Positions 4,463-53,796 of a DNA stretch of 53,796 nucleotides are shown piece after piece. The stretch is from Thermosipho japonicus. Its GTDB lineage: Bacteria; Thermotogota; Thermotogae; Thermotogales; Fervidobacteriaceae. The stretch is from positions 1-53,796 of the forward strand of contig NZ_JACHEX010000006.1 of assembly GCF_014201655.1 (NCBI RefSeq), in the 5' to 3' direction. A program made the position numbers and the translations under genes. The notes beneath the pieces are model-generated. The model searched no databases, had not been told where the DNA came from, and saw nothing but the letters and a program-made list of their open reading frames with translations. Each line of letters begins with the position of its first letter. Within the stretch, counting starts at the first letter, position 1.

Positions 4463-4480
4463 ATTATCTCCTCCTTTAAA

Positions 4481-4507
4481 ATATCCCGCCCGCAAGGGGC
4501 GGGATAT
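4481..4507 (-). terminator. intercistronic hairpin between binding protein and permease genes
   Basis: A perfect 11-bp stem (ATATCCCGCCC / GGGCGGGATAT, loop GCAAG) lies between the binding-protein stop and the permease start. On the minus strand it is followed only by TTTTAAA. It is probably a partial terminator or 3'-stabilising structure that keeps the binding protein in excess over the membrane subunits, as in many binding-protein operons. Confidence 0.7.
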
Positions 4508-4524
4508 TTCTGTAACTTATAGTA

Positions 4525-7046: not shown

Positions 7047-7058
7047 GGGAGGGATTTA

Positions 7059-8753: not shown

Positions 8754-8766
8754 AGGAGGGATCTGA

Positions 8767-9693: not shown

Positions 9694-9705
9694 GGAGGGC
9701 TATTC

Positions 9706-10479
9706 ATGAAAGCCTTTTGTTTTGATATAAAAGCCGATATGGGTTTTTTTAAAAAGAACGATTCAAATGCTAGGGTATTTACTACTTACAATTTTATTCA
9801 TAAACCTGCAGTTTTAGGGATTTTCGGTGCAATTTTAGGATATGGTGGTTACGATAGAGATAAAAAAAATAATAGTATTGAATACTATGAAAAGCTTAAG
9901 AACTTTAAGATAGCAATAAAGCCACTGTATAGAAAGCCTTTGAAAAAAACGGTGGTTATATTTAACAATTCATCTGGCCTTGCATCACAAGAACCAGGAG
10001 GTGTACTTCAGGCAAAGGAACAAATTATTGTCGAAAGTTTAGGATATACAATTTTTGTCCCCTTTTTTGAAACATTTAGCGAAGATGAAAAAGAAATCTA
10101 TGAAAAATTAGAATATATGGTTAAAAATAAATATGCAGAATATCCTATATATTTTGGAAAAAATGAATTTTTGGCATATTTTGAAAATTACAAATCACTT
10201 AACGTTGAAGAATTAGAAAGAAAAGAAGTAGTTGTTAACTCTCTTGTTAAAATGAAAGATGTTGATTTTTTTGTAAAAACCGATGAGGAAGAATTTGGTT
10301 TGTTTGAAGATCATAAAGGAGAGAAAAGTGTAACGATAATTGAGGAATTACCATACGATTTTGATGAAAATTATATGTATGTAAAAGATTTATTCATCTT
10401 TACAGATAAAGAGTTGAAAATAAAAAACAACGAAAGTTTTTGGAGGACAAATGATAATGAAGTTATTTACGTTTTCTAA
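9706..10479 (+). CDS. cas5: type I-B Cascade subunit Cas5 (Cas5h/TM1800 type)
   Basis: This 257-aa RAMP protein caps the 5' handle of the crRNA. The N-terminus MKAFCFDIKADMGFFKKNDSNARVFTTYNF followed by KPAVLGIFGAILGYGGYD is the characteristic Cas5 start with its glycine-rich turn. In I-B the protein is non-catalytic because Cas6 processes the RNA. The gene overlaps cas3 by 29 bases, so cas3 translation may depend on it. Confidence 0.92.
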   Translation: MKAFCFDIKADMGFFKKNDSNARVFTTYNFIHKPAVLGIFGAILGYGGYDRDKKNNSIEYYEKLKNFKIAIKPLYRKPLKKTVVIFNNSSGLASQEPGGVLQAKEQIIVESLGYTIFVPFFETFSEDEKEIYEKLEYMVKNKYAEYPIYFGKNEFLAYFENYKSLNVEELERKEVVVNSLVKMKDVDFFVKTDEEEFGLFEDHKGEKSVTIIEELPYDFDENYMYVKDLFIFTDKELKIKNNESFWRTNDNEVIYVF

Positions 10480-12862: not shown

Positions 12863-13335
12863 TTACTGGAAGTATAATTCAAGCATACCTTATTTGTAAA
12901 AGACAAGCTTGGCTTCTTTCACGGCAGTTAGTAGGTGAGCAAGATAGTGATTTTCTTGCGATAGGTAGGCTTATTTCTCAAGAGTCGTATAGCAGGGATA
13001 AAAAAGAGATAACTATAAATGGTGGGAAAGTTGATATTATAAGGTTAGAAAATGGTGAGATTAAATTGGTTGAAGTAAAAAAATCATCGAGAATGATTAA
13101 AAGTGCTAAATTTCAGCTTTTGTATTATATGTGGAAGGCGAATGTAGATTATGGAGAGATTAGAATTCCAAAAGAAAAGAAAGTTATAGAAGTCCATATG
13201 ACGGACGATGCTAGAGGGGAATTGTTAAATTTAATGAATGAGATAGAAGATATTATAAATAGAGATAAGGTTCCAAAAGCAGAGAGAAAGAAATATTGTA
13301 AAACGTGTTCTTTTGAATATTTTTGTTGGAGTTGA
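12859..13335 (+). CDS. cas4: CRISPR adaptation exonuclease Cas4
   Basis: This 158-aa RecB-family nuclease trims and orients prespacers by their PAM. The cluster-binding cysteines are visible: C13 (YLICKRQAW) and C147, C150 and C156 near the end (YCKTCSFEYFCWS), consistent with a 4Fe-4S cluster. The nuclease motif appears as LVEVKKSSR. It overlaps cas3 by 4 bases (ATGA) and precedes cas1 directly, the usual arrangement for a Cas4-Cas1-Cas2 adaptation module. Confidence 0.93.
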   Translation: MITGSIIQAYLICKRQAWLLSRQLVGEQDSDFLAIGRLISQESYSRDKKEITINGGKVDIIRLENGEIKLVEVKKSSRMIKSAKFQLLYYMWKANVDYGEIRIPKEKKVIEVHMTDDARGELLNLMNEIEDIINRDKVPKAERKKYCKTCSFEYFCWS

Positions 13336-13340
13336 TATTT

Positions 13341-14336
13341 GTGAAGGAAACAATATATATTTTTTCAGCTGGAACGTTAAAAAGAGAAGATAATTCTTTA
13401 GTATTTATAACTGAAGAGAATCAAAAAAAGCATATTCCTGTTGAAAATCTAAAGGAAATTTTTGTTTTTGGAGAGGTAAATTTAAATAAAAGGCTTATTG
13501 AATTTCTTTCTAAAAAAGAAATCATGATTTCTTTTTTTAATCATTATGGGTTTTACGTTGGAAGTTTTTATCCAAGAGAGCATTATAATTCCGGATTTAT
13601 GATTTTAAAACAAGCACAGTATTATATAGATAATGAAAAAAGAATCTATATAGCAAAAAAAATTGTAGAAGGTGCTGCAAGAAATAGTTTAAAGATTTTA
13701 AGGTATTACAAAAATAGGGGTAGAAAATTAGATAACCATATATCAGAAATAGAAAAAAACGTGGAAAAGATATTTAGAATAGAAGAAATACCTAAGTTGA
13801 TGCAAGTTGAAGGAAAAATAAAGAAAATTTACTATGAATCTTTTAATGAAATAATAAATTCTAGTGGTTTTAAATTTACAAAGAGAGGAAGAAGGCCACC
13901 TATTGATAGGATAAATGCGTTGATAAGTTTTTCAAATTCTTTGATTTATAGCATAGTTTTAAGAGAAATTTATGCAACACACCTTGATCCTAGAATAGGT
14001 TATTTACATTCAACAAATTTTAGAAGATTTTCATTAAATTTGGATATTGCAGAGATTTTTAAGCCTATTATTGGTGATAGAACAATTTTTAGTGTTATTA
14101 ATAAAAATATAATTGGAGTTAAAGACTTTGAAAAAAGCTTAAATAGAGTATTTTTGAACGATAGAGGTAAAAGAAAATTTATTGAAATTTTAGAAAAAAG
14201 ATTGAATGAGACAGTGAAACTGAGAAAGATAGGAAGAAATGTGAGTTATAGGACGTTGATAAGAATGGAGCTTTATAAATTAGAAAAACATCTTTTAGAG
14301 GATGAAGTATATGAGCCTCTAATAATGGAGTGGTGA
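13341..14336 (+). CDS. cas1: CRISPR integrase Cas1
   Basis: This about 331-aa integrase inserts spacers together with Cas2. I place the start at GTG 13341, 9 bases after a GGAG site; a TTG at 13323 inside the end of cas4 is less likely. Family features are the N-terminal beta domain (ETIYIFSAGTLKREDNSL), the metal-binding Glu region QVEGKIKKIYYESF, the His region THLDPRIGYLHS, and DIAEIFKPIIGDR. All look intact, so adaptation is likely functional. Cas2 follows after 1 base. Confidence 0.94.
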   Translation: MKETIYIFSAGTLKREDNSLVFITEENQKKHIPVENLKEIFVFGEVNLNKRLIEFLSKKEIMISFFNHYGFYVGSFYPREHYNSGFMILKQAQYYIDNEKRIYIAKKIVEGAARNSLKILRYYKNRGRKLDNHISEIEKNVEKIFRIEEIPKLMQVEGKIKKIYYESFNEIINSSGFKFTKRGRRPPIDRINALISFSNSLIYSIVLREIYATHLDPRIGYLHSTNFRRFSLNLDIAEIFKPIIGDRTIFSVINKNIIGVKDFEKSLNRVFLNDRGKRKFIEILEKRLNETVKLRKIGRNVSYRTLIRMELYKLEKHLLEDEVYEPLIMEW

Positions 14337-14337
14337 T

Positions 14338-14598
14338 ATGTTTGTTATTCTATACTATGATGTTGGTGTAAAAAGAGTTTCAAAAATGCTTAAAGTGTGT
14401 AGAAAATATTTGACGTGGGTTCAGAATTCGGTCTTTGAAGGAGAAATAAGTTATTCAAATCTTGAACGTTTAAAAAGCGAAATAGGAAGGATTATAAAAG
14501 ATGAGGATTCAGTAGTAATATACGTTTTTAATCAAATGTTGTACAGCAAAAGAGAAGTTTTAGGAAAAGATAAAAAAGAAGAAACAAAATTTTTATAG
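14338..14598 (+). CDS. cas2: CRISPR adaptation protein Cas2
   Basis: This 86-aa ferredoxin-fold protein is the structural partner of Cas1. The first strand MFVILYYDVGVKRVSKMLKVC carries the conserved Asp of Cas2, and TWVQNSVFEGEIS matches the canonical WVQxSVFEG segment. It is the last cas gene and immediately precedes the leader and array. A GGAGTGGTGAT ribosome site overlaps the end of cas1. Confidence 0.94.
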   Translation: MFVILYYDVGVKRVSKMLKVCRKYLTWVQNSVFEGEISYSNLERLKSEIGRIIKDEDSVVIYVFNQMLYSKREVLGKDKKEETKFL

Positions 14599-14603
14599 TT
14601 AAA

Positions 14604-14649
14604 TTCAGTCGATGTGTAGTAGTGTAAAAGGTCCTGGAGATCGACTGAA
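14604..14649 (+). other. perfect inverted repeat (stem-loop) between cas2 and the CRISPR leader
   Basis: TTCAGTCGAT (14604-14613) and ATCGACTGAA (14640-14649) form a 10-bp perfect stem around a 26-base loop containing GTGTAGTAGTGTAAAAGG. No T-run follows on the plus strand (an A-run follows instead), so it is not a normal terminator for cas2. It may be an RNA structure closing the cas message or a protein-binding site at the head of the leader. Confidence 0.55.
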
Positions 14650-14727
14650 AAAAATCAAAAAAATGTGTAACTTTAAAATATTTTACGTTAATATTGTTTA
14701 TCATTTATTATGATTTTTTCAAAAAGG

Positions 14728-14756
14728 TTGCAAAAAGTAATAATATGTAATATAAT
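14728..14756 (+). promoter_or_regulatory. pre-crRNA promoter in the CRISPR leader
   Basis: TTGCAA (14728-14733) and TATAAT (14751-14756) are separated by exactly 17 bases. Transcription would begin about 10 bases before the first repeat. The AT-rich leader extends from about 14650 to 14772. Confidence 0.8.
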
Positions 14757-14772
14757 TATAACGTAATCTATG

Positions 14773-15995
14773 GTTTGTACCTTACCTTGTAGGAATTGAA
14801 ATTTCCAATTGTATGTATAAGATCCATCTGATATATCGTTTGTACCTTACCTTGTAGGAATTGAAATGAGCTAATAACAATTCTTTTTGAATATTCCTTT
14901 GAGTTTGTAGCTTACCTTGTAGGAATTGAAATTTAGCATCGCTTCGTACAAAACTACCTGCGTGTAAAGTTTGTACCTTACCTTGTAGGAATTGAAATTA
15001 AGTTCTGCTGTGGAAGAAAATGGTGTTTTAACTATGTTTGTACCTTACCTTGTAGGAATTGAAACATCATTGGTTGCACCAACCTTTTTGGAAATACAGC
15101 AGTTTGTACCTTACCTTGTAGGAATTGAAACAGCCATTTACGTGCTTCCGGTGTTTTATCTTTAATCGTTTGTACCTTACCTTGTAGGAATTGAAACAAA
15201 TATTGCTCTAAAAACTCAATACTTAACTTTTCAAGTTTGTACCTTACCTTGTAGGAATTGAAACATGGCTTATGCAACTGTCATATGTGATGGAAAATAC
15301 AGTTTGTACCTTACCTTGTAGGAATTGAAACAAGTCTTCAAAAGACAATACCTTTTCTTCAAGCATTGTTTGTACCTTACCTTGTAGGAATTGAAACATT
15401 CACCTTTACCTTCCAAAGAAGGTACTTGATACCTGTTTGTACCTTACCTTGTAGGAATTGAAACTAAATATCTAACGATTAACGGTAAGAGCAGTCGTAT
15501 GTTTGTACCTTACCTTGTAGGAATTGAAACTTTAGGTAGTTTATGGATTGTAATATGTCGTTTATCGTTTGTACCTTACCTTGTAGGAATTGAAACTTTA
15601 ATGGGATTTCTGTAATGTTTTGAGACTGCCCAGTTTGTACCTTACCTTGTAGGAATTGAAACTTAAATTCTTTACTGATTATCAAACATTTGAAAAATTG
15701 TTTGTACCTTACCTTGTAGGAATTGAAACCTGTTTTTACTAACGAACCTCCACTACTTCCTACATCGTTTGTACCTTACCTTGTAGGAATTGAAACTCAC
15801 TTATACCTAACATCTTTAATACCATCATATTCATAGTTTGTACCTTACCTTGTAGGAATTGAAACGTTATTTCAGGGCTCCTCCAACCATACTTCTCATA
15901 GTTTGTACCTTACCTTGTAGGAATTGAAACCAAAACGACTGTGATGTTCTGTAATATCTAAGCTTGTTTGTACCTTACCTTGTAGGAATTGATAC
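14773..15995 (+). CRISPR. CRISPR array, 19 repeats of 30 bp and 18 spacers
   Basis: Repeats begin GTTTGTACCTTACC and end TTGTAGGAATTGAAAC. They start at 14773, 14838, 14903, 14969, 15036, 15102, 15168, 15235, 15302, 15368, 15435, 15501, 15567, 15633, 15700, 15767, 15836, 15901 and 15966. The period is 65-69 bp, giving spacers of 35-39 bp. The GAATTGAAAC end is typical of type I-B/III repeats processed by Cas6. The first four repeats end in T instead of C, the third also has GTAGC for GTACC, and the last one is degenerate (GATAC). The leader and promoter are on the cas2 side, so transcription runs plus and new spacers enter at 14773. Confidence 0.98.
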
Positions 15996-38640: not shown

Positions 38641-38666
38641 TCCCCGAAATGCCCTAGCATTCGGGA
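38641..38666 (-). terminator. riboswitch expression-platform terminator
   Basis: On the minus strand CCCGAATGC and GCATTTCGGG pair around TAGG, followed by AAATTTTTGTTTTT. It lies between the B12 aptamer and the first operon gene and would be formed when the aptamer is occupied. Confidence 0.85.
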
Positions 38667-38670
38667 AGTA

Positions 38671-38829
38671 ACTTTCATCATAGGCAGGTCTCCCGGCTCC
38701 CGGATCAACCTACTCTCCACGCCTTCCCAGGAAATGCTCCCAGTGGCATTCTGTGGATTTCGTCCCCGGTTACGGTTGCTGGGCAGCCCCGGCCTTTCAC
38801 CGGTGTTCCCTTAGCCTATGATGGTTTTC
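38671..38829 (-). ncRNA. cobalamin (AdoCbl) riboswitch
   Basis: The minus strand shows the conserved cobalamin aptamer elements in order: AGGGAACACCGGTGAAAGGC, GGGGCTGCCC-GCAACCGTAA, GAATGCCACTGG (the universal GCCACTG core), GGGAAGGCG, and the B12 box AGCCGGGAGACCTGCC near 38684-38699. It precedes the nine-gene operon and a terminator, so it represses the operon when B12 is plentiful. Confidence 0.96.
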
Positions 38830-38832
38830 TAT

Positions 38833-38838
38833 ATTATA
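38833..38838 (-). promoter_or_regulatory. candidate -10 element of the cobalamin operon
   Basis: A minus-strand TATAAT lies just upstream of the riboswitch. The matching -35 would fall inside the tRNA terminator stem and is weak, so read-through from the tRNA gene may contribute. Confidence 0.45.
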
Positions 38839-40628: not shown

Positions 40629-41201
40629 TTATATAGTAATGCTTTTTTGGTATATATTCCAAAGATGCAGAGCAGGATCGTAGCTTTGTACAAAAAGATT
40701 TACTTTATTTTCTTTTAAAACTTTTTTTGTTTTGTTATTGTATGTAATAATAATCTTTCTTTTTTCATCGTATATAATGAATTTTTCATTTTTGAGTCTT
40801 TCAAGAAAGTATAAGAATAAAAGATCTATTATATTAGAATTAGAGAAAAATGAAGATATAAATACTCCATTGTATTCTAAAAAGTAAAGCTTTCTTTTAA
40901 TTTTTTCAAATTCATTCAATACATCTTTAGAAATTTTTCTAAGTGTTTTTTCTAAAAAGATATTTTTGGTAATAACATATTTTATAATTAGCGATTCAAT
41001 ATTTCTGATTTCAGAAAGAAATGGTAAAAAAACGGAATTGTCATGTATAAATTTTTTAGTAAATTCTATTTCAGAAAGATCGATAAGAATTGAATTTTTC
41101 CTTTCTTTTTTTAAGACAAAATCTGGTATTATGTTGTTTTTATAGCAAAATTGAATTAGTTTAAGCAGTCCATTAAAGGTTCCATCATATGATACCACCA
41201 T
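40629..41201 (-). CDS. DUF4130-like partner of a DNA-repair radical SAM protein
   Basis: This 190-aa protein starts MVVSYDGTFNGLLKLIQFCYKNNIIPDF, the characteristic opening of the DUF4130 family, often fused to or next to uracil-DNA-glycosylase. No UDG domain is fused here and the protein is shorter than the fused forms. It follows directly after the radical SAM gene (0-base gap), the family's usual partner. A role in DNA repair or base modification is inferred from this linkage; no catalytic motif is apparent. Confidence 0.75.
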   Translation of the reverse strand: MVVSYDGTFNGLLKLIQFCYKNNIIPDFVLKKERKNSILIDLSEIEFTKKFIHDNSVFLPFLSEIRNIESLIIKYVITKNIFLEKTLRKISKDVLNEFEKIKRKLYFLEYNGVFISSFFSNSNIIDLLFLYFLERLKNEKFIIYDEKRKIIITYNNKTKKVLKENKVNLFVQSYDPALHLWNIYQKSITI

Positions 41202-42362
41202 TTACAAGTCCCACCCATTTTGAGAAAATTCAAATAAAGGCATATAAGTCTTTGAATCTTTAAAGTTTTTTCCTTTAATAGTGATGAAGTTTTTTGCTTT
41301 TTTTAGAGAAATTCCTGCTTTTTTTAGAGTTTCAAAGTTAAGTATTCCATGTTTTCTTAGCATGATTATTTTTTGAGCAGATTTAAGGCCAATCCCGGGG
41401 ATCCTTATTAATTCATCAAATGTTGCTTTGAATATATCTATTGGAAAGAATTCTGGATGTTTGAGAGCCCACAAAGATTTTGGATCGATATTTAAATCCA
41501 GATTTTCACAGTTATCAAAAATTTCTTCTATAGAGTAATTGTAGAATCTTATGAGAAAATCTGTTTGATACAATCTGTGCTCTCTTAAGGAATTTTCACT
41601 CCTTTGTGGAAGCCTTTTATCTTTGTTTATGGCTATATATCCAGAATAATACACCCTTTTAAGTTTATATATTTTATAGAGTTTACTTGAAAACTCTATA
41701 ATTTTTTTATCTGATTCGTTAGTTGCCCCAACTATTATCTGTGTTGTTTGTCCCAAAGGAGAATAAGGCTTTACATGTGAATATTTCTTTTTTTCTTCAA
41801 TGTATTGAAGATATTTGATTGCGGAAGTTTGTAGTGGTTTTTGTATTGCTTCTGGCTTTTTTTCAGGTGCAAGATTAAAAAATGCATCTTTTTTTAAAAA
41901 TTCTACATTTATACTTACCCTGTCTGCGTACATCCCAGCCTTTTCAACTAACATTTCATCTGCTCCTGGAACTATTTTTAAGTGAATGTAGCCAGGAAAT
42001 TTTTCTTCTTCTCTTAGCTTTTTTGCAACGTTTACCAATTGCTCCATAGTATAGTTTGGATCCTTTATTATAGCCGAACTTAAAAAAAGACCTTCTATGT
42101 AATTTCTTTTGTAAAAATCCACAGTTAGTTTCACAACTTCATCCACTGTAAAACTTGCACGTTTTATATTATTTGATTTTCTGTTTATACAGTATGCACA
42201 ATCGTATATACATGCATTTGAAAATAATATTTTTAAGATAGGAACATACCTACCGCTTGCCACGCTGTAATACACAAAATCTTTTTTTCTCTCTCCAAAA
42301 GAGCATGAAACATCGTATTTTGCAGCAGCAGAAAGAATACTTAGTTTTTCCTCAAGTGTCAT
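41202..42362 (-). CDS. putative DNA modification/repair radical SAM protein (UDG-linked type)
   Basis: This 386-aa protein has the radical SAM cluster motif C51-x3-C55-x2-C58 (NACIYDCAYCINRK). Its N-terminus MTLEEKLSILSAAAKYDVSCSF matches the UDG-linked radical SAM family. Residues 330-380 hold a helix-hairpin-helix segment (IPGIGLKSAQKIIMLRKHGILNFETLKKAG), a DNA-binding element that supports action on DNA. The partner DUF4130-like gene follows immediately. The reaction catalysed is not known. Confidence 0.87.
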   Translation of the reverse strand: MTLEEKLSILSAAAKYDVSCSFGERKKDFVYYSVASGRYVPILKILFSNACIYDCAYCINRKSNNIKRASFTVDEVVKLTVDFYKRNYIEGLFLSSAIIKDPNYTMEQLVNVAKKLREEEKFPGYIHLKIVPGADEMLVEKAGMYADRVSINVEFLKKDAFFNLAPEKKPEAIQKPLQTSAIKYLQYIEEKKKYSHVKPYSPLGQTTQIIVGATNESDKKIIEFSSKLYKIYKLKRVYYSGYIAINKDKRLPQRSENSLREHRLYQTDFLIRFYNYSIEEIFDNCENLDLNIDPKSLWALKHPEFFPIDIFKATFDELIRIPGIGLKSAQKIIMLRKHGILNFETLKKAGISLKKAKNFITIKGKNFKDSKTYMPLFEFSQNGWDL

Positions 42363-43646: not shown

Positions 43647-45230
43647 TCAAACAGATATTTTTCTTAAAACTCTCTCCAATCTTCCTCTTGTCCTTTTATC
43701 ATCCACACACCAGAATGCCAAAATCGTTGGTTGTATCTTTAGTTGGTATTTCTTCGCAAATTCCCTTACCACTTCTGGTGCCATCAAGCTTATCCCAAAC
43801 TCTATCCCATCATATCTGCCATAGTTTCTCAAAAAACTGTCTATTAGTTTTCTGTCTGGTTCGTCAAGTTCTATATATCTCTGAATGATTTTCCTTAATT
43901 TCTTTATCTCTATTTTATCTATTGCTTTCTTAACTACCGCTTTTCGCCCTTCTACATAAGGGTGCGCTTTTATCATTTCTACCACAAATTTCATTGTTTC
44001 GTATCTTCTTGCCATGTGCTTTCCAAATTTCTCGATATCCCCAAGCAGTTTGTATGTTTCTTTAAATTTGTCTTTTCTTGACAGATAAAACTTTGCTCTT
44101 TCAACCTGCGCTGTGTATGTGCATATAAAAAATCGCTCTCTTTCAGAAAGTGGAATCTGTTTTAATTTTTTCAGCGCCTCTTCAAATTGCTTTTTTATCA
44201 ATATCTTTATATATTCGTTGTACAAGGGATAGGGAAGTTTTAAACTTTCCACTCTCTTTCCGTCCAATATTTTTCTCAACGTGTTGCCCCGGATCCTTTT
44301 CTCCTTCGTGGTTATTATCTCCGATATCCTTCCGGTTGATACCTTCTCTTTTCTGTACGGTTCTATAATCTCTCTTATGGACTTTCTCAAACTTTTTGTG
44401 TTTACATAGATCGACACGTCAAATTTTGGAATGTATTTCTCTGCTTCTTTCAAAAGCTTCTCGTATCTTTTTGGAACTTCCAGTGATTTTATTATCTTCG
44501 ATGTTTTGTAAATGGAAAACGCGTTGATTATTTTTTCAGTCACGAACAGGGTATCTATTACACCGAACAGATTACCAGGTGATTCACGGTAATATCCAAG
44601 CCAAAAAACAGCTCCTTGAGAAATTTTGTAGGCGAGCCTTGGATGTTTTTCTTTAATATCCCATGCAAGATCGTTCAAGGAGGAAACAATACAGGTAGGA
44701 TGAGGAATTTCTTTAGCCTGTTTATAGGCTTGTATGTAATTATGTACAGCTTTAGAGAATTTTTCAGAACTTGCCTCTCTTCTCGCCAGAGAAAGATACA
44801 AAAGTGAGAGTGTGGATTTTCTGTAATCGTTTTTCCACACCCGTACTTTTCGCAGAGAATTAACTTTATCTGCTTCAAAACTTATCAAAGTAACGATAAC
44901 AGTATCTCTTATGGACTTTGACATTTTAGGAAGTTTTCTTTTCAAGTATCTGTATAAATCCAGATTCAGTTGACCTATATATTTTAAAAACACAAGTTTG
45001 TTCGCTAAAAGAATATACTTTACTGTTTCAGACTTGTAGTTTTTTAAAGTTTTATCTATTTTCTCGAGTGCTTCCTTGAAATTACCTTTCCATGCAAGCT
45101 TCAAGATACAGAGAATTTCCCTGTAATCTTTTGGAATATTTCCTTCACAAGATAGATAATTCGCCGCCGGTAAAGAAAACGCACCATACTTGAAAATATC
45201 GTTCAAGCTCTCTATGACTTTCATTTCCAA
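43647..45230 (-). CDS. large TPR-like putative regulator of the peptide-export locus
   Basis: This 527-aa cytoplasmic protein has no signal or membrane helix. Much of it reads as helical repeats (for example ILKLAWKGNFKEALEKIDKTLKNY, KFSKAVHNYIQAYKQAKE and RFFICTYTAQVERAKFYLSR), consistent with TPR-like folds. Residues about 300-335 (TGRISEIITTKEKRIRGNTLRKILDG) could be a small helix-turn-helix. It is transcribed divergently from an ABC exporter across a region that is duplicated at 47.5 kb, where a truncated copy of its own N-terminus (KYGAFSL...NY) survives. This supports a regulatory, perhaps peptide-sensing role, but that is inference. No named family is recognised. Confidence 0.7.
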   Translation of the reverse strand: MEMKVIESLNDIFKYGAFSLPAANYLSCEGNIPKDYREILCILKLAWKGNFKEALEKIDKTLKNYKSETVKYILLANKLVFLKYIGQLNLDLYRYLKRKLPKMSKSIRDTVIVTLISFEADKVNSLRKVRVWKNDYRKSTLSLLYLSLARREASSEKFSKAVHNYIQAYKQAKEIPHPTCIVSSLNDLAWDIKEKHPRLAYKISQGAVFWLGYYRESPGNLFGVIDTLFVTEKIINAFSIYKTSKIIKSLEVPKRYEKLLKEAEKYIPKFDVSIYVNTKSLRKSIREIIEPYRKEKVSTGRISEIITTKEKRIRGNTLRKILDGKRVESLKLPYPLYNEYIKILIKKQFEEALKKLKQIPLSERERFFICTYTAQVERAKFYLSRKDKFKETYKLLGDIEKFGKHMARRYETMKFVVEMIKAHPYVEGRKAVVKKAIDKIEIKKLRKIIQRYIELDEPDRKLIDSFLRNYGRYDGIEFGISLMAPEVVREFAKKYQLKIQPTILAFWCVDDKRTRGRLERVLRKISV

Positions 45231-45352
45231 TCCCCCCTTTATATTTATACCTCAAAAAATTCAATTAGTCCAGATTCCATAAAATTTGGTTTTGTGAATG
45301 CCATATTAAAGAGGATTTCGGAAAAGACAAAAGTTGAAAGCCATATAAGATA
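45173..45352. repeat. imperfect direct repeat, copy 1 (regulator 5' end plus divergent promoter region)
   Basis: About 180 bases covering the first codons of the regulator and its upstream region recur at 47499-47680. Shared stretches include TATACCTCAAAAAAT, CATAAAATTTGGT, TAAAGAGGATTTC and AAAAGTTGAAA. Confidence 0.85.
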
Positions 45353-45357: not shown

Positions 45358-45436
45358 AGATATAAAATAAGAATAGGTAATGTTTATTTAATTGTAATAA
45401 AATTAAAATTTATTTTGCTGAGGAGATTAAATTTAG

Positions 45437-45784
45437 ATTGTTAATCAACTTAAAAGATATAACTGTTCTGCGCTTTACAATCAATTGTCTCTTGATCCAG
45501 ATGGTTATTTGTATCCTTGCAGTGAATTAATAAGTTATAGATTTAAAATTTGTCACATTACTGAACAGGAAAAACTAAAGGAAATGGTTCATCAGTTTCG
45601 ATCTTAAACAGTTTTTGGATTGCCTATTGTTCAAGAGATTTGCCTAGATTGCCCCATAAAATATTTATGTTGTGGTGGACACAGAACAGTTGACTTACTT
45701 TCTGGAAAAAATTACTTTGATGCACTGGCTAATGGTTTAATTTGTAATATATTTTTATTAAGTATTTTTAATGTTTTGTGGTAG
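45437..45784 (+). pseudogene. remnant of a radical SAM/SPASM peptide maturase (C-terminal SPASM domain)
   Basis: One frame reads NCSALYNQLSLDPDGYLYPCSE, then TVFGLPIVQEICLDCPIKYLCCGGHRTVD and ends near LICNIF. The spacing of Cys residues and the LxxDGYLYPC core are typical of SPASM auxiliary-cluster domains of peptide-modifying radical SAM enzymes. An in-frame TAA at 45605 interrupts it and no start codon or radical SAM core precedes it, so it is a decayed 3' fragment. It precedes the ABC exporter gene. Confidence 0.78.
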
Positions 45785-45858: not shown

Positions 45859-47481
45859 ATGAATGTGAAAAAATACACTAAAAAGCAGATATTGCAGTTG
45901 TTTAAAGAACATTTTTTATACCTTCTTTTTGCCTTTTTGTTGCTTGTTTGTGCAACAGGGATGACAATTCCCATTCCGTTGCTCTCGAGAAATATCATTA
46001 ACTCCATATTGACTAAGAGTATTTCGAGCAATCTGTTCAAAATTCAAATAATACTGCTTCTAATGGTAAGTCTATCGAAGGAATTCTTAATGTATATTTC
46101 GTATTACATCTTTGAAAGTAGAATGAGATTTTTTTCCTCATCGCTAAGGAAAACTATATTTGAAGTGGCTCAGAATAATTTCAACCAGATTTCTTCTTTA
46201 GAAACAGGTAGATTGTTAACCTACATTAGTTCAGATACGGAAAGAATTCAAAAATTTTTCTATCCAAGTTTAGTGTTTTTCATGAAAGACTTACTCACGT
46301 TTTCATTTGCCTTAACTGTTGGGCTCTTTTTAAATCCCTTGACCATTGTTGTATCAATCCTTCCTTTGGTGATTTTTTTCGTATTGGCTCACTACGTGAA
46401 TCCTAAGATTAGAGTTTTAACACACAAAGCTCTTGAGTCACAGACAGAGTTTGTAAGTAGGTTGAAGGAATACATCCAGGGTATGGAGATGTTCAGGGTG
46501 TTTTTGAAGCAAAAATTTTCTATAACAAAATTTAAGGAGTTCAATGAGGAGTATACAAAGAATGATATCAGACGAGTAAAGTCAATTATTCTATTTAACA
46601 TACCACTTACTATACTCTTTAATAGTGGCTATGTCATAGCAATTATCGTAGGGGTTTATCAAATGAAAATAGGTACTATGCAAGCTGGTGGTTTGGTGGC
46701 GGTATTGATGGTGGTAAACTACATTTACGATTCAGCTAGAAACTTCTGGGATTTCAACATACATCGCCAAGAGATAAAAGTTGTGTCCAAAAGACTTTCA
46801 GAAATTTTGGAAACACCGTTTACAAAAAGATGCGATATTACTGCCGTGCAACAACACTTGAATGGAAAAATCGAATCGCTGAAGATATACATACCAAGTT
46901 TTTCTTACAAAAGTGGAACTTTGTTGCTTGAAAACTTCAAACTGCATGCCCAAAAAGGTGAAATTGTTGGGCTTTTTGGAAAAAGCGGAATAGGAAAGAG
47001 CACGGTAATAAAGATCATTCTGGGGCTTTTAGGTATAGAAAAGAACTATGTTTTTGTCAACAACGTACCGCTGAATAAAATCGAGATAAATTCGTATTAT
47101 AGCAGAATTGGTTATCTTCCTCAACATTCGGTTTTATTCAAGGGAACGGTTAAAGAAAACATACTTCTTGGAGAAGAGAAATCTCTTGATAATAAGCTAC
47201 TGGAATTTCTTGATGATCTCTCACTTGAAAAAGAAGTGGAAGAAGGCGGTCGCAACCTTTCCGGGGGAGAACGACAGAGGATATCGATAGTAAGAACATT
47301 TGCAAAAGGTGATAAAGATCTGTATCTTTTAGATGAACCAACAACTTATTTGGATGGAGCAAAGATTAGAACATTAAAAGAACTGATAAAAAGCAAATCA
47401 AGCGAGTCTATAATTCTGATTGTTTCGCACTCCCGGAATTTCTTGGAAAATTTATGTGATAGTATCGTAGAATTTTCTTAA
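45859..47481 (+). CDS. ABC exporter (fused membrane and ATPase domains), first copy
   Basis: This 540-aa half-transporter has six membrane helices (about residues 15-300) and an ATPase domain: Walker A GKSGIGKST (about 374-382), Q-loop YLPQHS, signature LSGGERQR, Walker B LYLLDEPTT and H-loop VSHS. The fold is that of peptide/lipid/drug exporters; no peptidase C39 domain is present. GGAGGT lies very close to ATG 45859, so GTG 45865 is an equally good start. Flanking SPASM remnants, signal-peptide genes and the second exporter suggest export of a modified peptide. GC content is near the local background. Confidence 0.9.
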   Translation: MNVKKYTKKQILQLFKEHFLYLLFAFLLLVCATGMTIPIPLLSRNIINSILTKSISSNLFKIQIILLLMVSLSKEFLMYISYYIFESRMRFFSSSLRKTIFEVAQNNFNQISSLETGRLLTYISSDTERIQKFFYPSLVFFMKDLLTFSFALTVGLFLNPLTIVVSILPLVIFFVLAHYVNPKIRVLTHKALESQTEFVSRLKEYIQGMEMFRVFLKQKFSITKFKEFNEEYTKNDIRRVKSIILFNIPLTILFNSGYVIAIIVGVYQMKIGTMQAGGLVAVLMVVNYIYDSARNFWDFNIHRQEIKVVSKRLSEILETPFTKRCDITAVQQHLNGKIESLKIYIPSFSYKSGTLLLENFKLHAQKGEIVGLFGKSGIGKSTVIKIILGLLGIEKNYVFVNNVPLNKIEINSYYSRIGYLPQHSVLFKGTVKENILLGEEKSLDNKLLEFLDDLSLEKEVEEGGRNLSGGERQRISIVRTFAKGDKDLYLLDEPTTYLDGAKIRTLKELIKSKSSESIILIVSHSRNFLENLCDSIVEFS

Positions 47482-47484
47482 TGG

Positions 47485-47553
47485 ATAATTTATCACTGAA
47501 AGAGAAAACGCGCCGTACTTTAAAGTTTCTTTCAAGCACTCTACGCCTTTCAT
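47485..47553 (-). pseudogene. truncated 5' end of a second copy of the TPR-like regulator
   Basis: On the minus strand ATG 47553 opens MKGVECLKETLKYGAFSLSV-INY, aligning with MKVIESLNDIFKYGAFSLPAANY of the regulator at 45230. The similarity stops at the 3' end of the ABC exporter gene, so the duplicate was cut there. Confidence 0.8.
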
Positions 47554-47680
47554 TTTTAATTATCTCTTTATAGTTATACCTCAAAAAATCGAATTGTTTC
47601 AAAATTCATAAAATTTGGTGCTAGAAATGGCCTTCTAAAGAGGATTTCAGAACAGGCAAAAGTTGAAAACCATATAAGAT
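47499..47680. repeat. imperfect direct repeat, copy 2
   Basis: The partner of 45173-45352. It includes the regulator remnant and the divergent promoter region with the TTGAAAACCATATA motif, showing that a regulator-promoter module was duplicated around the exporter gene. Confidence 0.85.
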
Positions 47681-47726: not shown

Positions 47727-47831
47727 ATGAGGAGAATTCTTTTAGCTGTATTTCTAATACTCTTACTTTTACCTGGAATCATTTTCGCTGATAAGACAAA
47801 TGCGGATAACGAAACACACAGATTGTTCTGA
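47727..47831 (+). CDS. small secreted-peptide precursor (leader), frame-interrupted
   Basis: This 34-codon gene encodes MRRILLAVFLILLLLPGIIF followed by ADKTNADNETHRLF: a Sec-type signal with an Ala cleavage site near residue 21, then a short charged tail. In the adjacent frame the sequence continues without a stop as TDCSESTVACRCSCGGYQAM and SRKETGIHTLLLERRF to a stop at 47930. The two parts look like leader and Cys-rich core of one precursor separated by a single-base frameshift. Its leader resembles that of the next small gene (48092). Confidence 0.6.
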   Translation: MRRILLAVFLILLLLPGIIFADKTNADNETHRLF

Positions 47832-47930
47832 AAGTACAGTTGCTTGCAGATGCAGTTGTGGTGGTTATCAAGCAATGTCGAGGAAAGAAACAGGTATTCA
47901 TACTCTATTGTTAGAGAGGAGATTTTAATT
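47805..47930 (+). pseudogene. Cys-rich peptide core in a shifted frame
   Basis: Read in the frame next to the leader gene, this stretch gives TDCSESTVACRCSCGGYQAM, with four Cys in sixteen residues (C-x7-C-x-C-x-C), then a basic tail and stop. No start codon of its own is evident. Either one base has been gained or lost (dead gene) or a ribosomal frameshift joins it to the leader. Cys-rich cores of this kind are substrates of SPASM maturases, fragments of which lie on both sides. Confidence 0.55.
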
Positions 47931-48046
47931 GAGTGTTTCTGTTATACGCGAAAAAAATCAAGTGCTTCAAGTTTACAAAAATATTACACACCGGAAGAGT
48001 CTTTAAAAACTAAATTCATGATACTCACATATTGGTTGCTGTACTT
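47931..48046. repeat. inverted copy of the segment at 51682-51790
   Basis: The stretch from TTTCTGTTATAC to ACTTGAAAACCATATAG, with shared AGTTTACAAAAA between, recurs on the minus strand near 51682-51790 with moderate divergence. It appears to be the upstream half of a second promoter-module type. Confidence 0.6.
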
Positions 48047-48068
48047 GAAAACCATATAGGTTGTATTA
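48045..48068 (+). promoter_or_regulatory. shared motif TTGAAARCCATATA, site 3
   Basis: TTGAAAACCATATAGGTTGT lies 47 bases upstream of the second small secreted-peptide gene at 48092. Confidence 0.6.
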
Positions 48069-48091
48069 GTGTTTGTCGATGGGCTGGGAGA

Positions 48092-48466
48092 ATGAGGAAG
48101 TTTTTTGCGGTTATGATCATTTTTATCTTTGGATGTGAATTGATCTTTGCTGGTGAGACGGAGGTAAATGATGCAACGGACAGCCCACTACCTCCACCGA
48201 GTAAGCACAGCGTTGGTGTGAAGGAGATGGTGGAAAGTATGGAAGTCTTGATAGGTATTGATAGTCAAGCGAAGGGGGTGGGATGTTTAGATTCCAAATA
48301 TATATATATTATGAATACTAAGAACGAGATGTTTGAGACATTACTTCCTGCTGAATCATGTAATTTTGCATGTCCTTATTGTTTTCAATATCGGGAGCGA
48401 AACAAAATTATGAATCCAAGCTGTTTGAGCGGAGCCTGCTGTCAAAGCTCAAAGCTAAAGGGATAA
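48092..48466 (+). CDS. secreted-peptide leader fused in frame to a radical SAM N-terminal fragment
   Basis: This 124-codon frame has two unlike parts. Residues 1-30 (MRKFFAVMIIFIFGCELIFA then GETEVNDATD) form a signal peptide and acidic tail similar to the leader at 47727. From about residue 68 it reads as the start of a radical SAM enzyme, with CNFACPYC (C90, C94 and C97; CxxxCxxC) at 48359-48382. After YRERNK the frame soon stops, while the neighbouring frame continues helix-like (KLFERSLLSKLKAKGISTE). It is most likely a deletion fusion of a peptide gene with a decayed maturase, and a functional product is doubtful. Confidence 0.6.
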   Translation: MRKFFAVMIIFIFGCELIFAGETEVNDATDSPLPPPSKHSVGVKEMVESMEVLIGIDSQAKGVGCLDSKYIYIMNTKNEMFETLLPAESCNFACPYCFQYRERNKIMNPSCLSGACCQSSKLKG

Positions 48467-48474
48467 GCACAGAA

Positions 48475-48501
48475 TGAGGAGGGAAAACTTCTCCCTCCTC
48501 A
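48475..48501 (+). other. GC-rich hairpin upstream of the second exporter
   Basis: GAGGAGGGA and TCCCTCCTC pair around a short loop, without a following T-run. It may act as an attenuator or stabiliser between the peptide and exporter genes. Confidence 0.5.
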
Positions 48502-48554
48502 CTCTCATCGTCAGTTAGGTATCATTATCAATAATATGCAGGAGGGGGGAAAGC

Positions 48555-50297
48555 ATGAATCTTAAGAGCATTCGAAAAATCTTTCGCTTTTATTCTTTGG
48601 TCAGAAAACGCTTTCTGGTACTCATAGTTATAGGCGGTTTTCTCGCGACATCTTCAGTTGCGTTTGATTTTTTTGTTCCTCTTCTTGTGCGGGATGTTAT
48701 TAACGGGTTAACAAAAATGGAACTGAAACTGAACACGCTCTACCTTCTCGGACTAGTCTACGCTACATCATTTGTTTTGACATATGTTGGAGATCAGATC
48801 TACTTGAGGGCAAAGTACAGAGCTGTTGCGGATCTTTCCAGTCGTATCTTTAACCTATCGTTCTTCTTTCCCTGGAAGAAGCTCAAGCAAAAGGGTTCTG
48901 CCTATTATGCCACTTTGATCAATCATCAACTCAACGACGCTTTCCTCCTGTTAGATTACGGCTTTTTTGAAAATGCCTTAGTAATAATCCGGAGCATATT
49001 CATTCTGGCGACGGTTTTCGTGTGGAGCAAGATCTTCTTTATTTTATTCGTGATCAACGCCTTGATAGTTGGAATTTATTTGAACATAATTGGTAAGGTA
49101 ACAGAACGACCGTATGCAAAAACATACGAGATGATTCGGCGTGTGACAAATTTCATAACCGAAACCTTTGAAAACATCCACGAAGTTCTTGCAGGGGGAG
49201 CTCAGAAAAAGTGTCAGAAAGAGTGCGAAAGGATGTACCAGGAGATAGCAGACACCGCTTTGAAGGCAGAGCTTCCTCGCTCAAGATTCGACAAACTGAT
49301 GGTGAATCTACCGGAATATTTCACACGACTATTCATTCTGGCCTACGGAGCTTATCTGGTAATAGGTGGAAAGATGACCGTGGGAACGATATGGGCGTTG
49401 TGGAGCTATTTTTCTTTTGTGGTGGCGCCCCTGTACATGTTCCGGGAGCTGGCTCGTGTTACCACGCGAGTATCAGCAAACTTGGATGCTGTACTTGCTT
49501 ATTTCGATGAGGTAAAGCAAGCCGAGGAAACCTTCAAGAGCTCTAAAATAAAACCCATTCCTGGAAGTCCCGTATACGAACTGATAGATGTCGCTTTCGG
49601 TTTCGATCCGGAGAACCCCATTTTAAAACAGATCAGTTTCAAGATACAACCCCGTGAGATCGTTGCCATAGTGGGACTTTCCGGAGAAGGGAAATCCACC
49701 TTGCTGAACATATTGCTCGGTCTGGAAGAGAACTACGAGGGAGTGGTAAAGTTTCTTGGAAATGATTTAAAACGATTGCCGTCTTCAGCCGTTTTTGAAC
49801 ATGTAGCTTTTTACTCTCAAAATGTTGGTATATTTAACGACACACTGGAAAACAACATAATCCTTGGAAGGGAGTACGATGAAGATAAACTCAACAGAGT
49901 GATAAAAGAGCTCGGAATAGAACACTTGAAAGGAAGGAACTTAGGAGAAGGGGGAAGCTTCGTTTCAGGGGGAGAAAAACAAAGAATCCAGCTTGCCAGA
50001 CTTTTCTACGCAGATAAACCCGTTGTTGTTCTGGACGAACCTCTCACAAACCTCGATACGATAACCGAGAAGTTTTTGCTGGAAAAGCTATCTGAATTTC
50101 TGAAGAAAAGAACGACTGTCATGATTTCGCACAAACCAAACATCATTGGCATTGCCAGCAAAATAGTCTTCCTTGAAAATGGTAGGATTTCCGCGATTGG
50201 GGAATTCGAGGATTTAATGCAAAATAACGAAACATTCAGAAAAATAATAGAAACGTATGTGAGTGAATCGAAAAAGATCGCTGATAGAAATATCTGA
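48555..50297 (+). CDS. ABC exporter (fused membrane and ATPase domains), second copy
   Basis: This 580-aa half-transporter has six helices in the first 320 residues and a full ATPase domain: Walker A GLSGEGKST, Q-loop FYSQNVGI, signature VSGGEKQR, Walker B VVVLDEPLT and H-loop ISHKP. It may pair with the exporter at 45859 or act as a homodimer. Base composition is clearly richer in G+C than the window (27 of 60 bases in the line at 49261), and codon choice differs from the AT-rich genes upstream, suggesting transfer. AGGAGGGGGGAAAGC gives a strong ribosome site. Confidence 0.92.
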   Translation: MNLKSIRKIFRFYSLVRKRFLVLIVIGGFLATSSVAFDFFVPLLVRDVINGLTKMELKLNTLYLLGLVYATSFVLTYVGDQIYLRAKYRAVADLSSRIFNLSFFFPWKKLKQKGSAYYATLINHQLNDAFLLLDYGFFENALVIIRSIFILATVFVWSKIFFILFVINALIVGIYLNIIGKVTERPYAKTYEMIRRVTNFITETFENIHEVLAGGAQKKCQKECERMYQEIADTALKAELPRSRFDKLMVNLPEYFTRLFILAYGAYLVIGGKMTVGTIWALWSYFSFVVAPLYMFRELARVTTRVSANLDAVLAYFDEVKQAEETFKSSKIKPIPGSPVYELIDVAFGFDPENPILKQISFKIQPREIVAIVGLSGEGKSTLLNILLGLEENYEGVVKFLGNDLKRLPSSAVFEHVAFYSQNVGIFNDTLENNIILGREYDEDKLNRVIKELGIEHLKGRNLGEGGSFVSGGEKQRIQLARLFYADKPVVVLDEPLTNLDTITEKFLLEKLSEFLKKRTTVMISHKPNIIGIASKIVFLENGRISAIGEFEDLMQNNETFRKIIETYVSESKKIADRNI

Positions 50298-51063: not shown

Positions 51064-51625
51064 ATGGTAAAGAAGAAGAAAAAGGAAGAAAGTAACATTG
51101 AAAAATTAGCAAAGTTAATAGCAAGGGATCCAGAAGTAAATACAATGAAAGACGTATATTTTTGACAAGATTAAAGAATTGATGGGACCGATAATACAAG
51201 AAATATTAGAAACGGAATTAGAAGATGAATTAGGATATGAGAAATACGATAAGGAAAATAAAGAAACGGATAACTCCAAAAATGGATACAGCTCAAAAAA
51301 GGTAAGATCAAGCATGGGTGAGATAGAATTGAAAATAACCAGAGATAAAAATGGGGAATATGAACCGAAAATAATACCAAAGTATAAAAAGGATATCTCA
51401 GATATTGAAAGTAGAATAATAGGGATGTATGGTTTAGGATTAAGTACGAAAGATATAGCTAAGAATGTTGAAGATATATATGGTGTAGAATTATCAGCTG
51501 AAATGATAAGTAAAATTACTAATAAGATATTACCAGAAATTAGAGAATGGCAAAGCAGACCATTAGAAGAGATATACGCTTTTGTTTTCATGGATGGAAT
51601 AGTATTTAAAATAAAAGATGTTAAA
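51064..51625 (+). mobile_element. IS256/Mutator-family transposase remnant (frameshifted and truncated)
   Basis: ATG 51064 opens VKKKKKEESNIEKLAKLIAR; an extra T in the run at 51158-51163 breaks the frame, which resumes DKIKELMGPIIQEILETELE then DELGYEKY. IS256 hallmarks are NSKNGYSSKKVRSSMGEIEL, GMYGLGLSTKDI and VFMDGI, the last being the first catalytic Asp region. Similarity ends near 51625, so the remaining DDE residues are lost. The breakpoint joins a promoter module in inverse orientation. Confidence 0.85.
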
Positions 51626-51658
51626 CTTTTTTTATTTTCCCATCCTCCATGCGAAAGC

Positions 51659-51682
51659 TAACACAATCTATATGGTTTTCAA
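51659..51682 (-). promoter_or_regulatory. shared motif TTGAAARCCATATA, site 4 (minus strand)
   Basis: TTGAAAACCATATAGATTGT on the minus strand now points into the truncated IS256 remnant, so the gene it served is gone. Confidence 0.6.
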
Positions 51683-51790
51683 GTCATGAAGGCAATTTCA
51701 GGGTGTTCTCAAACAATCTTGTAAAGCTATTTCTGGAGTGTCATGTTTTTTGTAAACTCACAGCGTTTGAATTTTTCCGTGTATAACAGA
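51682..51790. repeat. inverted partner of 47931-48046
   Basis: On the minus strand this stretch shares TTTCTGTTATAC, GAGTTTACAAAAA and ACTTGAAAACCATATAG with 47931-48060. The inverted pair flanks the second exporter and both dead IS elements. The rest of 51791-52005 has no intact gene, although a weakly hydrophobic frame (GPLVIFTSTVLCYLLPLSD) is present. Confidence 0.6.
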
Positions 51791-52005
51791 AACATGGAGG
51801 TGATGGGTATGGGGTTTACTCTATTTTAGGATACAGGGCCTCTTGTTATTTTTACATCAACTGTTTTATGCTACCTTTTACCTCTAAGTGATAAGGCACT
51901 TAAGTTCAAAAATACTGTGACCTTGCGTATCTGATAAGCCAAAAAGAACAAACCGGGCAACTGCGACTTTGTAATTTTGTAATATAAGGTTATTATTTAC
52001 CAAGA

Positions 52006-52186: not shown

Positions 52187-52906
52187 TCACTCTGGAATTG
52201 TAAGGACCACTGTCTCTTGATTTACACCCTTTCCAAAAAATATTCCCAATGTGAGGAATCCCACTCCTGTGATGAGCGAGAAAGTCAGCAAAAGCGTGAA
52301 GATATCACCTTGAAAGTTTTTCACAGTCGTGTTTATCAAAACATTTCCCCCATAACCGATTGCAAACACACTGGTCATTGTGAGAAATCTCATAATGGCA
52401 ACCCTTCTTATTCTCAGCACAACACTGCTTATAAAAGCCGACACGCCCAGATTTACGAAAGTTATGTAGACGAAGATTATCAACATGTCTGCGATGGGCG
52501 TTTTGGGAAGGTAACGCTGTTTCAGGATGAAAAAGACTGTCAGAAAGACAGCAAGGTAAATCTCTCCGGAAAGCCACATGATAAGCAAGGCACTCTTCAA
52601 ATAACTCTTTATCCTGAATCCATTCGACAGGAGAAATTCAATCCTTCCACTCTCTTTTTCCGGAATGAGTATCTGCTGAAGATTTGCAAAGATGCCCATT
52701 ATGATCATACTCAAACTCATTACATATACCGTCTCTGTAACATATACTCTTGCAACATCCCGGCTTGCGAGGATCTGTTTTATCGATTCGTCTGTAAACA
52801 GTTGAAACAGCGTGAAAGAGAAAAGAGCCATTATGAAAATCATCACGAAGTAAAAAGGAGGTTTCTTAAAGTTCATTTCACAGAAATACCCGAGTTCTTT
52901 TTTCAT
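52187..52906 (-). CDS. ABC-2 type exporter permease
   Basis: This 239-aa membrane protein has six hydrophobic helices. It has the general ABC-2 layout, including an amphipathic segment after the second helix, IPEKESGRIEFLLSNGFRIKSYLKS, which is the coupling region of NatB/CcmB-like permeases. It overlaps the ATPase gene by 4 bases (ATGA), so they form one transporter. The pair may export or give immunity against the peptide made by the locus. Base composition is high in G+C compared with the first 45 kb. Confidence 0.85.
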   Translation of the reverse strand: MKKELGYFCEMNFKKPPFYFVMIFIMALFSFTLFQLFTDESIKQILASRDVARVYVTETVYVMSLSMIIMGIFANLQQILIPEKESGRIEFLLSNGFRIKSYLKSALLIMWLSGEIYLAVFLTVFFILKQRYLPKTPIADMLIIFVYITFVNLGVSAFISSVVLRIRRVAIMRFLTMTSVFAIGYGGNVLINTTVKNFQGDIFTLLLTFSLITGVGFLTLGIFFGKGVNQETVVLTIPE

Positions 52907-53613
52907 GATTTTCCCTCCTTAACCATATCGATGAAAAGTTGCTCAAGGGTTTGGTATTTTGACAAGATATCCCATATCAGATCATCAGCCAGAATTTTGC
53001 CGTCTTTTATCAGGACGAACCTGTCGGCGAGCTTTTCTACCTCAGCAAGGTCATGCGAAGTTATGAGGACGCTCTTCCCCATTTTTTTGAGCTCTTTTAT
53101 CATCTCCCTCATGTTTATTCTCGATATTGGATCGAGCCCGCTCATTGGCTCGTCAAGTATCAAAAGATCAGGATCTGGAAGGAGGGCAAGCAAGAAAGAT
53201 AATTTTCTTTTTGTACCTTTTGAATAAGTGTGAACCTTCTTTTCCAGAAACTCCTTCAATCCGAGCTTTTCCGAGTAATGATTTATCTTTTCTTTACTCA
53301 ACTTTCCTTCGAAATACCTGTAAACCCTCTCGATATTTTTATAGCCGCTATCCCCTTCCCATAGAAAGTCCTTTTCGCTCATCACAGAGATTCTAAGGTT
53401 GTGATTCTTTTCAACATCACCAGAATCGATTTTGTAAATTCCAGATATACAACGTATGGTGGTCGTTTTTCCCGCACCGTTGGGACCTATCAATGCAAGT
53501 ATCTCATCCATGAAGATGTCAAAAGAAACATTCTTCAAGATATGTTTTTCTCCTATCCTTTTATTAGCTTTTCTAATAGCAACGGCTTTGATTCTAAAAT
53601 CTCTTTTCTCCAT
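52903..53613 (-). CDS. ABC-2 type exporter ATPase
   Basis: This about 236-aa ATPase has Walker A GPNGAGKTTT, a Q-loop region VMSEKDFLWEGD, signature YSKGTKRK, Walker B LLILDEPMSGLD and H-loop ITSHD. The signature has K in place of the second G (SKGTK for SGGQ), seen in some NatA-like proteins. I place the start at ATG 53613 (MEKRDFRIKAVAIRKANKRIG); the longer frame to 53700 reads through the end of the SPASM gene. It overlaps that gene by about 60 bases and would be co-transcribed with it. Confidence 0.88.
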   Translation of the reverse strand: MEKRDFRIKAVAIRKANKRIGEKHILKNVSFDIFMDEILALIGPNGAGKTTTIRCISGIYKIDSGDVEKNHNLRISVMSEKDFLWEGDSGYKNIERVYRYFEGKLSKEKINHYSEKLGLKEFLEKKVHTYSKGTKRKLSFLLALLPDPDLLILDEPMSGLDPISRINMREMIKELKKMGKSVLITSHDLAEVEKLADRFVLIKDGKILADDLIWDILSKYQTLEQLFIDMVKEGKS

Positions 53614-53796
53614 AAGCATCCTTCTCCCTTCTCTGATGCTTTTTGCATGCCCCTTGTTATACATCCGTGACAAAACCATAGATCGCTGCAATCCATGCAT
53701 ATCTCATCTTTATCCTCTGCTTCAGTCTTTCTATATACCATTCTATTTCCCATCTTTTGCTATATATCAACCTATTTATTTCTCTTTCCATAAATT
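53553..53796 (-). pseudogene. C-terminal SPASM part of a radical SAM peptide maturase (runs off the window)
   Basis: From 53753 the minus strand reads DEICMDCSDLWFCHGCITRG with a final GCLWRKEIL, the Cys pattern of a SPASM domain (C-x2-C-x5-C-x2-C...C). Farther upstream in this frame there are stops, but the neighbouring frame reads MEREINRLIYSKRWEIEWYI then ERLK, like the preceding part of such enzymes. A frameshift near 53720 would join them. Most of the gene is beyond 53796, so it could also be intact if my frame reading at the edge is wrong. Confidence 0.65.

Follow-up and report, generated by a model that had tools for sequence, protein, structure and literature searches.

A probable decayed gene for an exported, pheromone-like peptide, split between two frames in a degraded RiPP locus of Thermosipho japonicus

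Results

A small peptide gene split between two reading frames

The window, by which we mean the whole stretch of 53,796 nucleotides that was analyzed, is contig 6 of a draft genome of 1.92 Mb in 9 contigs, and the features around the split gene are listed in Table 1. Its leader frame, MRRILLAVFLILLLLPGIIFADKTNADNETHRLF, is 34 residues long, begins with an ATG that has a ribosome-binding-like GGGGGG shortly before it and ends at a TGA stop codon (47829–47831). Past this stop the +1 frame is open as far as 47928, where it ends in TKHTDCSESTVACRCSCGGYQAMSRKETGIHTLLLERRF and a stop. An earlier note on this DNA had described a leader that runs into a stop while the neighboring frame carries on with TDCSESTVACRCSCGGYQAM, and its coordinates and peptides proved correct; the cysteine spacing it gave, C-x7-C-x-C-x-C, is in fact C-x6-C-x-C-x-C. 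The stretch at 47917–47935 may hold the start of the next gene with its ribosome-binding site or, equally, be a piece of eroded tail. Elsewhere the window holds a CRISPR-Cas locus with Cas6, Cas3 and a CRISPR-DR2 repeat array (6312–15930, array at 14903–15930), a radical SAM/HhH protein gene adjoining one for a DUF4130 protein (40629–42362, minus strand) and a cobalamin riboswitch over the gathering score that adjoins a tRNA-Pro (38666–38834, minus strand).

Table 1. Features of the peptide locus, in window coordinates.
Feature	Position	Strand	Remarks
TPR protein with central Cro/C1-type HTH region, intact	43647–45230	-	53–61% to full-length relatives
C-terminal remnant of radical SAM/SPASM maturase	45434–45784	+	N-terminal part gone, one in-frame TAA
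ABC exporter 1 (membrane + ATPase), open	45859–47481	+	Pfam ABC_membrane, ABC_tran; 81% to G024
Remnant of second TPR-HTH regulator gene (N-terminus + upstream region)	47452–47602	-	Truncated by end of ABC exporter 1
Element TTGAAAACCATATA, promoter region of leader	47663–47676	+	Also 45334–45347 (GCC), 48045–48058, 51669–51682 (-)
Leader of exported peptide (signal peptide + ADKTNADNETH, end RLF and stop)	47727–47831	+	Frame 0
Tail	47820–47928	+	+1 frame; 47855–47918 shares homology with the tails of g1/g2 (T. maritima type)
Chimeric ORF	48092–48466	+	Second peptide leader + maturase piece + Cys precursor tail
ABC exporter 2, open	48555–50297	+	Pfam; 78% to G022
Mutator-family transposase fragment	51179–51661	+	PF00872, 3e-42; abuts fourth remnant
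Fourth peptide-gene promoter/TPR start remnant	51668–51830		51668–51794 (-) matches 47934–48059

At least four cysteines within 12 codons arise in 0.3% of simulated 111-nt stretches, and the six frames of the window contain 23 comparably dense cysteine clusters, mostly in obviously non-coding frames, so that the cluster alone is weak evidence for a peptide. The homology of the two halves, leader in frame 0 and tail in frame +1, is in contrast beyond chance. The leader shares 58–77% identity over 30–31 residues with leaders of peptides in the related genomes G022, G024, G029, G031 and G033, which have the consensus ...FADKxxxDNETHSW and in which the same frame leads past the leader into differing tails. 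DNA similarity between the leader and its relatives ends at 47818–47819, the end of NETH, and the conserved SW that follows in the relatives is missing from the window. The copies in G029 and G033 have a short tail (...DNETHSQKI, then a stop) that runs directly into a maturase remnant, and may perhaps be broken themselves.

The tail is related to two exported peptides of a Thermotoga maritima-type genome, g1 and g2. At the DNA level 46 of 63 nt agree (73%), a score equaled in none of 1000 shuffles, and the corresponding protein match of 18 residues (YQAMSRKETGIHTLLLER in the window, YQTTVRKKTVVHTLLLEK in g1 and g2 of G031 and close genomes) lies in the +1 frame only. When each frame was scored against 26 family peptides, a set collected by hand, the +1 frame reached 57, where the null mean was 24 and none of 1000 shuffles did as well, and frames 0 and +2 stayed at the null. 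The match is short (63 nt), and the phylum-wide search that first revealed it gave only E = 0.088; it is credible despite this weak value because it falls in the same peptide family as the leader. No clear third-position bias was seen over the whole length of the match, and 47820–47855 had no match in any relative. The conserved part of the cysteine frame is YQ..RK.T..HTLLLE. Tails in this family are patchworks, with NETHSW joined to DDYQT in G022, NETHSW to TAGNQ in the T. maritima-type peptide and DDYQT to TAGNQ in g1, and these shared patches imply that leader and tail both belong to a single kind of gene. Several further matches were set aside as chance: a protein match to the core in G026 (E 6e-4), which is not in the frame of the annotated-size ORF and falls in an unrelated region, one in G086 with stops inside it, and short DNA matches to the tail within unrelated sequence in G022 (at 531334), G032 and other genomes. 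A search of a plasmid collection gave no match.

A 14-base element (TTGAAANCCATATA) stands 5′ of each peptide gene or remnant in the window. Exact copies of TTGAAAACCATATA in related genomes are concentrated ahead of these peptide genes, from which we infer that the element is likely the promoter or operator of the family. Copies in G002 (contig C2) and G000 (contig C4) lie outside any peptide or TPR context, the latter within a 719-aa ORF, and were judged to be chance occurrences. At a further locus (L144 of G017, 3482–5469) two ORFs that by eye resemble IS21-type transposases separate the TPR gene from TTGAAAACCATATA, a disrupted pair.

A mosaic of decayed cassettes

The locus is a mosaic of several decayed cassettes in which only one regulator and two ABC exporters are still open. 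Cassette 1 has kept the open regulator and ABC exporter 1; it has no peptide, and its maturase is reduced to the SPASM end, which matches the G024 maturase at 78% and 68% and exceeds the TIGR04085 cut-off with one TAA inside. Of cassette 2 only three parts are left, a regulator start, the broken peptide and the element upstream of it. Its regulator remnant was recognized from 79% identity between 47503–47680 and 45174–45351, with the ORF MKGVECLKETLKYGAFSLSVINY comparing to MKVIESLNDIFKYGAFSLPAANY of the open gene. Cassette 3, the chimeric ORF followed by ABC exporter 2, lies in a stretch of raised GC content (0.42 over 48001–50000, against about 0.31 for most of the window). Residues 1–37 of the chimeric ORF are the leader of a second exported peptide (65% to the peptide leader of G021), residues ~71–109 come from the N-terminal part of a radical SAM maturase and include the motif CNFACPYC (85% to the G022 maturase over residues 83–109), and the end, CLSGACCQS, is the tail of a Cys-rich precursor (compare CLSGVCCKSVLNG of G022). 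In cassette 4, the promoter/TPR start remnant is accompanied by ABC genes at 52187–53700 that resemble those of two related loci (L020 and L022). The ABC genes together with an apparent maturase end (CMDCSDLWFCHGC) occupy 52187–53796 and reach the end of the contig.

The high GC content, together with the placement of the nearest relatives outside the family, suggests acquisition by horizontal transfer and later loss. No intact radical SAM maturase lies beside the peptide, only the fragments at 45434–45784 and inside the chimeric ORF; with the peptide frame-broken and the maturases fragmentary, the product can hardly be made. On a speculative note, the surviving exporters might serve self-protection.

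The regulator and its pairing with exported peptides

The intact TPR-HTH protein is probably a peptide receptor and regulator. AlphaFold models it as a helical solenoid (pLDDT 88.1, pTM 0.88), for which Foldseek returned generic TPR-like proteins first and no match below E 0.001; PlcR (4fsc) was among the matches at rank 48 with a target TM of 0.50. Pfam TPR_12 was found weakly in two of eight members of the regulator family, and a PDB sequence search with the TPR protein gave no match at E ≤ 1. The HTH region occupies approximately residues 280–325 of 525, between the helical halves. HTH_26 scores 24.3–24.8 bits (cut-off 22) in the middle region of three relatives (L058, L059 and L060) and is weak or undetected in the others, including the protein of the window, where it is not significant. 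The family was found in 57 of 103 Thermotogota genomes. In a T. maritima-type genome, two paralogous regulators share 34% identity over their first 345 residues and 90% over the rest, and they face different peptides, as if specificity halves had been swapped; this divergence of the N-terminal part alongside different partner peptides is as expected if the first part recognizes the peptide.

A small exported-type peptide is encoded ~150–400 nt upstream on the opposite strand at 20 of 37 TPR loci, compared with none of 202 control genes (the other genes in the fetched loci), a count in which related copies are not independent; at 17 of the 37 no peptide so defined was present. In intact relatives the peptide occupies a single frame, with a signal peptide, a FADKxxxDNETHSW-type region and a variable tail, and heads an operon in which there may also be a Cys-rich RiPP precursor, one or more radical SAM/SPASM maturases and ABC exporters. 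In these operons the real Cys-rich precursors are encoded farther downstream by ORFs of their own that have no signal peptide, such as MEFLNNP...ECCQSNGNCSECF... at locus L019 and ...FTGFCCLSGVCCKSVLNG in G022. In G031, which we take to be a T. maritima MSB8-type genome, the exported peptide g2, divergent from a TPR gene, directly precedes a 31-residue Cys peptide, MQKMPKPVVPNDYLNPGKGCGGAGLVCGWCG, at a locus that also has radical SAM and ABC genes (L139, 14811–17100). The Cys peptide is presumably TM1316, for which the same length is reported. At two other loci (L107 and L114), a very Cys-rich secreted protein of ~130–140 residues (CATCGTNAVCYAACTAYCLAQC) lies 3′ of the exported peptide, ~600–750 nt from the TPR gene.

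Discussion

Our reading is that 47727–47928 is probably the decayed gene of a small exported peptide, a pseudogene of an RRNPP- or Rgg/SHP-like pheromone that would have controlled radical-SAM RiPP cassettes, its signaling role being putative. In the proposed scheme, an intact peptide would be exported and, once cut after its signal sequence, be shortened to a C-terminal pheromone; when cell density is high, the pheromone would re-enter the cell, bind the TPR regulator and switch the RiPP operon, with the pheromone role, import and DNA control all conjectural. More broadly, Thermotogota may possess a phylum-wide and undescribed class of peptide pheromone, in which a divergent exported peptide and a TPR receptor with a central Cro/C1-type HTH and swappable N-terminal halves switch TM1316-type radical SAM RiPP operons, the window representing decay after transfer; we regard the case for this class as evenly poised. 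A somewhat unlikely alternative gives the exported peptide a structural or immunity role in the RiPP cassette, with the TPR protein sensing something else. Co-location with RiPP genes accords with this, but the pairing with a divergent TPR-HTH gene spans several Thermotogota families, and the tails show the high variability expected of pheromones.

A net frame offset between 47820 and 47865 parts the leader from the tail in the window; either an indel or a recombination joint that brought the two together out of frame could have caused it. The leader frame might instead encode a functional short peptide by itself, with mature form ADKTNADNETHRLF and a new, shorter tail, leaving the +1 match as a fossil. 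The intact signal peptide and upstream element accord with this, as do the short tails elsewhere in the family, but the short-tailed copies in G029 and G033 run on into what is left of a maturase and are perhaps broken too, and the operon in the window has neither maturase nor precursor; we consider such a peptide unlikely. That a sequencing or assembly error has split an exported-peptide gene which is in truth whole and still partners the intact regulator appears more doubtful still. The assembly is a draft in 9 contigs, with the joint inside one of them, and the regulator as well as both exporters have kept open frames. Against an error, the SW after NETH is lost and the interval between leader and tail aligns with no relative, so more than one base differs, and the lesions nearby (the internal TAA, deletions, fusions and transposase fragment) are real decay. 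A programmed +1 frameshift at the leader stop (TTC TGA), yielding one secreted Cys-rich peptide, is very improbable even though the +1 frame passes the joint without a stop and the 3′ part is genuinely peptide-derived, since leader and tail share one frame in all intact relatives, TTC TGA has no visible prfB-like internal Shine-Dalgarno ahead of it, the cysteines lack conservation and the maturases for a Cys-rich product are broken at the locus.

We therefore favor a frame lesion over programmed shifting, all intact relatives using one frame. The earlier note had proposed one gene in two frames: the two halves do come from one kind of gene with a frame lesion between them, and what lacks support is the programmed shift, every intact relative being single-frame, together with the Cys-rich product. 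Neither the shift site nor the two-frame layout is conserved in homologues. Where the window reads CGGYQAM, the tails of g1 and g2 read SDDYQTT, so the cysteines that would have defined the secreted peptide are not conserved, and a cysteine follows the signal peptide in only 3 of the 26 family peptides. The non-conserved cysteines and broken maturases also led us to reject the Cys-rich core as a RiPP. Conservation of the leader frame alone had been named as the observation that would speak against a joint peptide, and the outcome is mixed: the leader is kept and the cysteines are not, yet part of the cysteine frame is.

The broken gene itself is ordinary decay; it led to exported peptides that form a family associated, throughout Thermotogota, with TPR-HTH regulators. 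The TM1316-type RiPP locus of T. maritima is reportedly induced in stationary phase (Frock et al. 2013, AEM 79:6637), and the pairing of the peptide with a TPR-HTH protein offers a testable explanation for that induction. In the open-access library that was searched, RRNPP and terms beginning with Thermotog co-occurred in just one paper, which mentions each once.

Among known systems, TM1315–TM1319 of T. maritima is one of the nearest. The corresponding locus of G031 has a divergent TPR gene, g2, the 31-residue Cys peptide and radical SAM and ABC genes, and the tail in the window matches g2; the window differs in its broken peptide frame and in a maturase and precursor that have been lost or fused. 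With RRNPP systems such as PlcR the Thermotogota family shares a predicted TPR solenoid, a Cro/C1-type HTH (above cut-off in three relatives) and an adjacent gene for a small exported peptide. The RRNPP arrangement of an N-terminal HTH with C-terminal TPRs is not found in the Thermotogota regulator, and because the position of the HTH differs and the search turned up no sequence homology to known receptors we call the system RRNPP-like in anatomy and do not claim membership. If the signaling reading is true, it would represent an RRNPP-like class of quorum sensing outside Bacillota, and at high temperature. In streptococci, Rgg/SHP pairs control radical-SAM RiPP operons in a density-dependent manner (PMC13361665). 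The Thermotogota peptides are longer than those of the Rgg/SHP pairs and carry a D/N-rich stretch, and the HTH of their regulator is central rather than N-terminal; the likeness consists in a small exported peptide beside a TPR-type regulator, heading an operon of radical SAM RiPP and exporter genes, and would, if it reflects function, place intracellular peptide signaling of the Rgg/SHP kind in a deep-branching thermophilic phylum.
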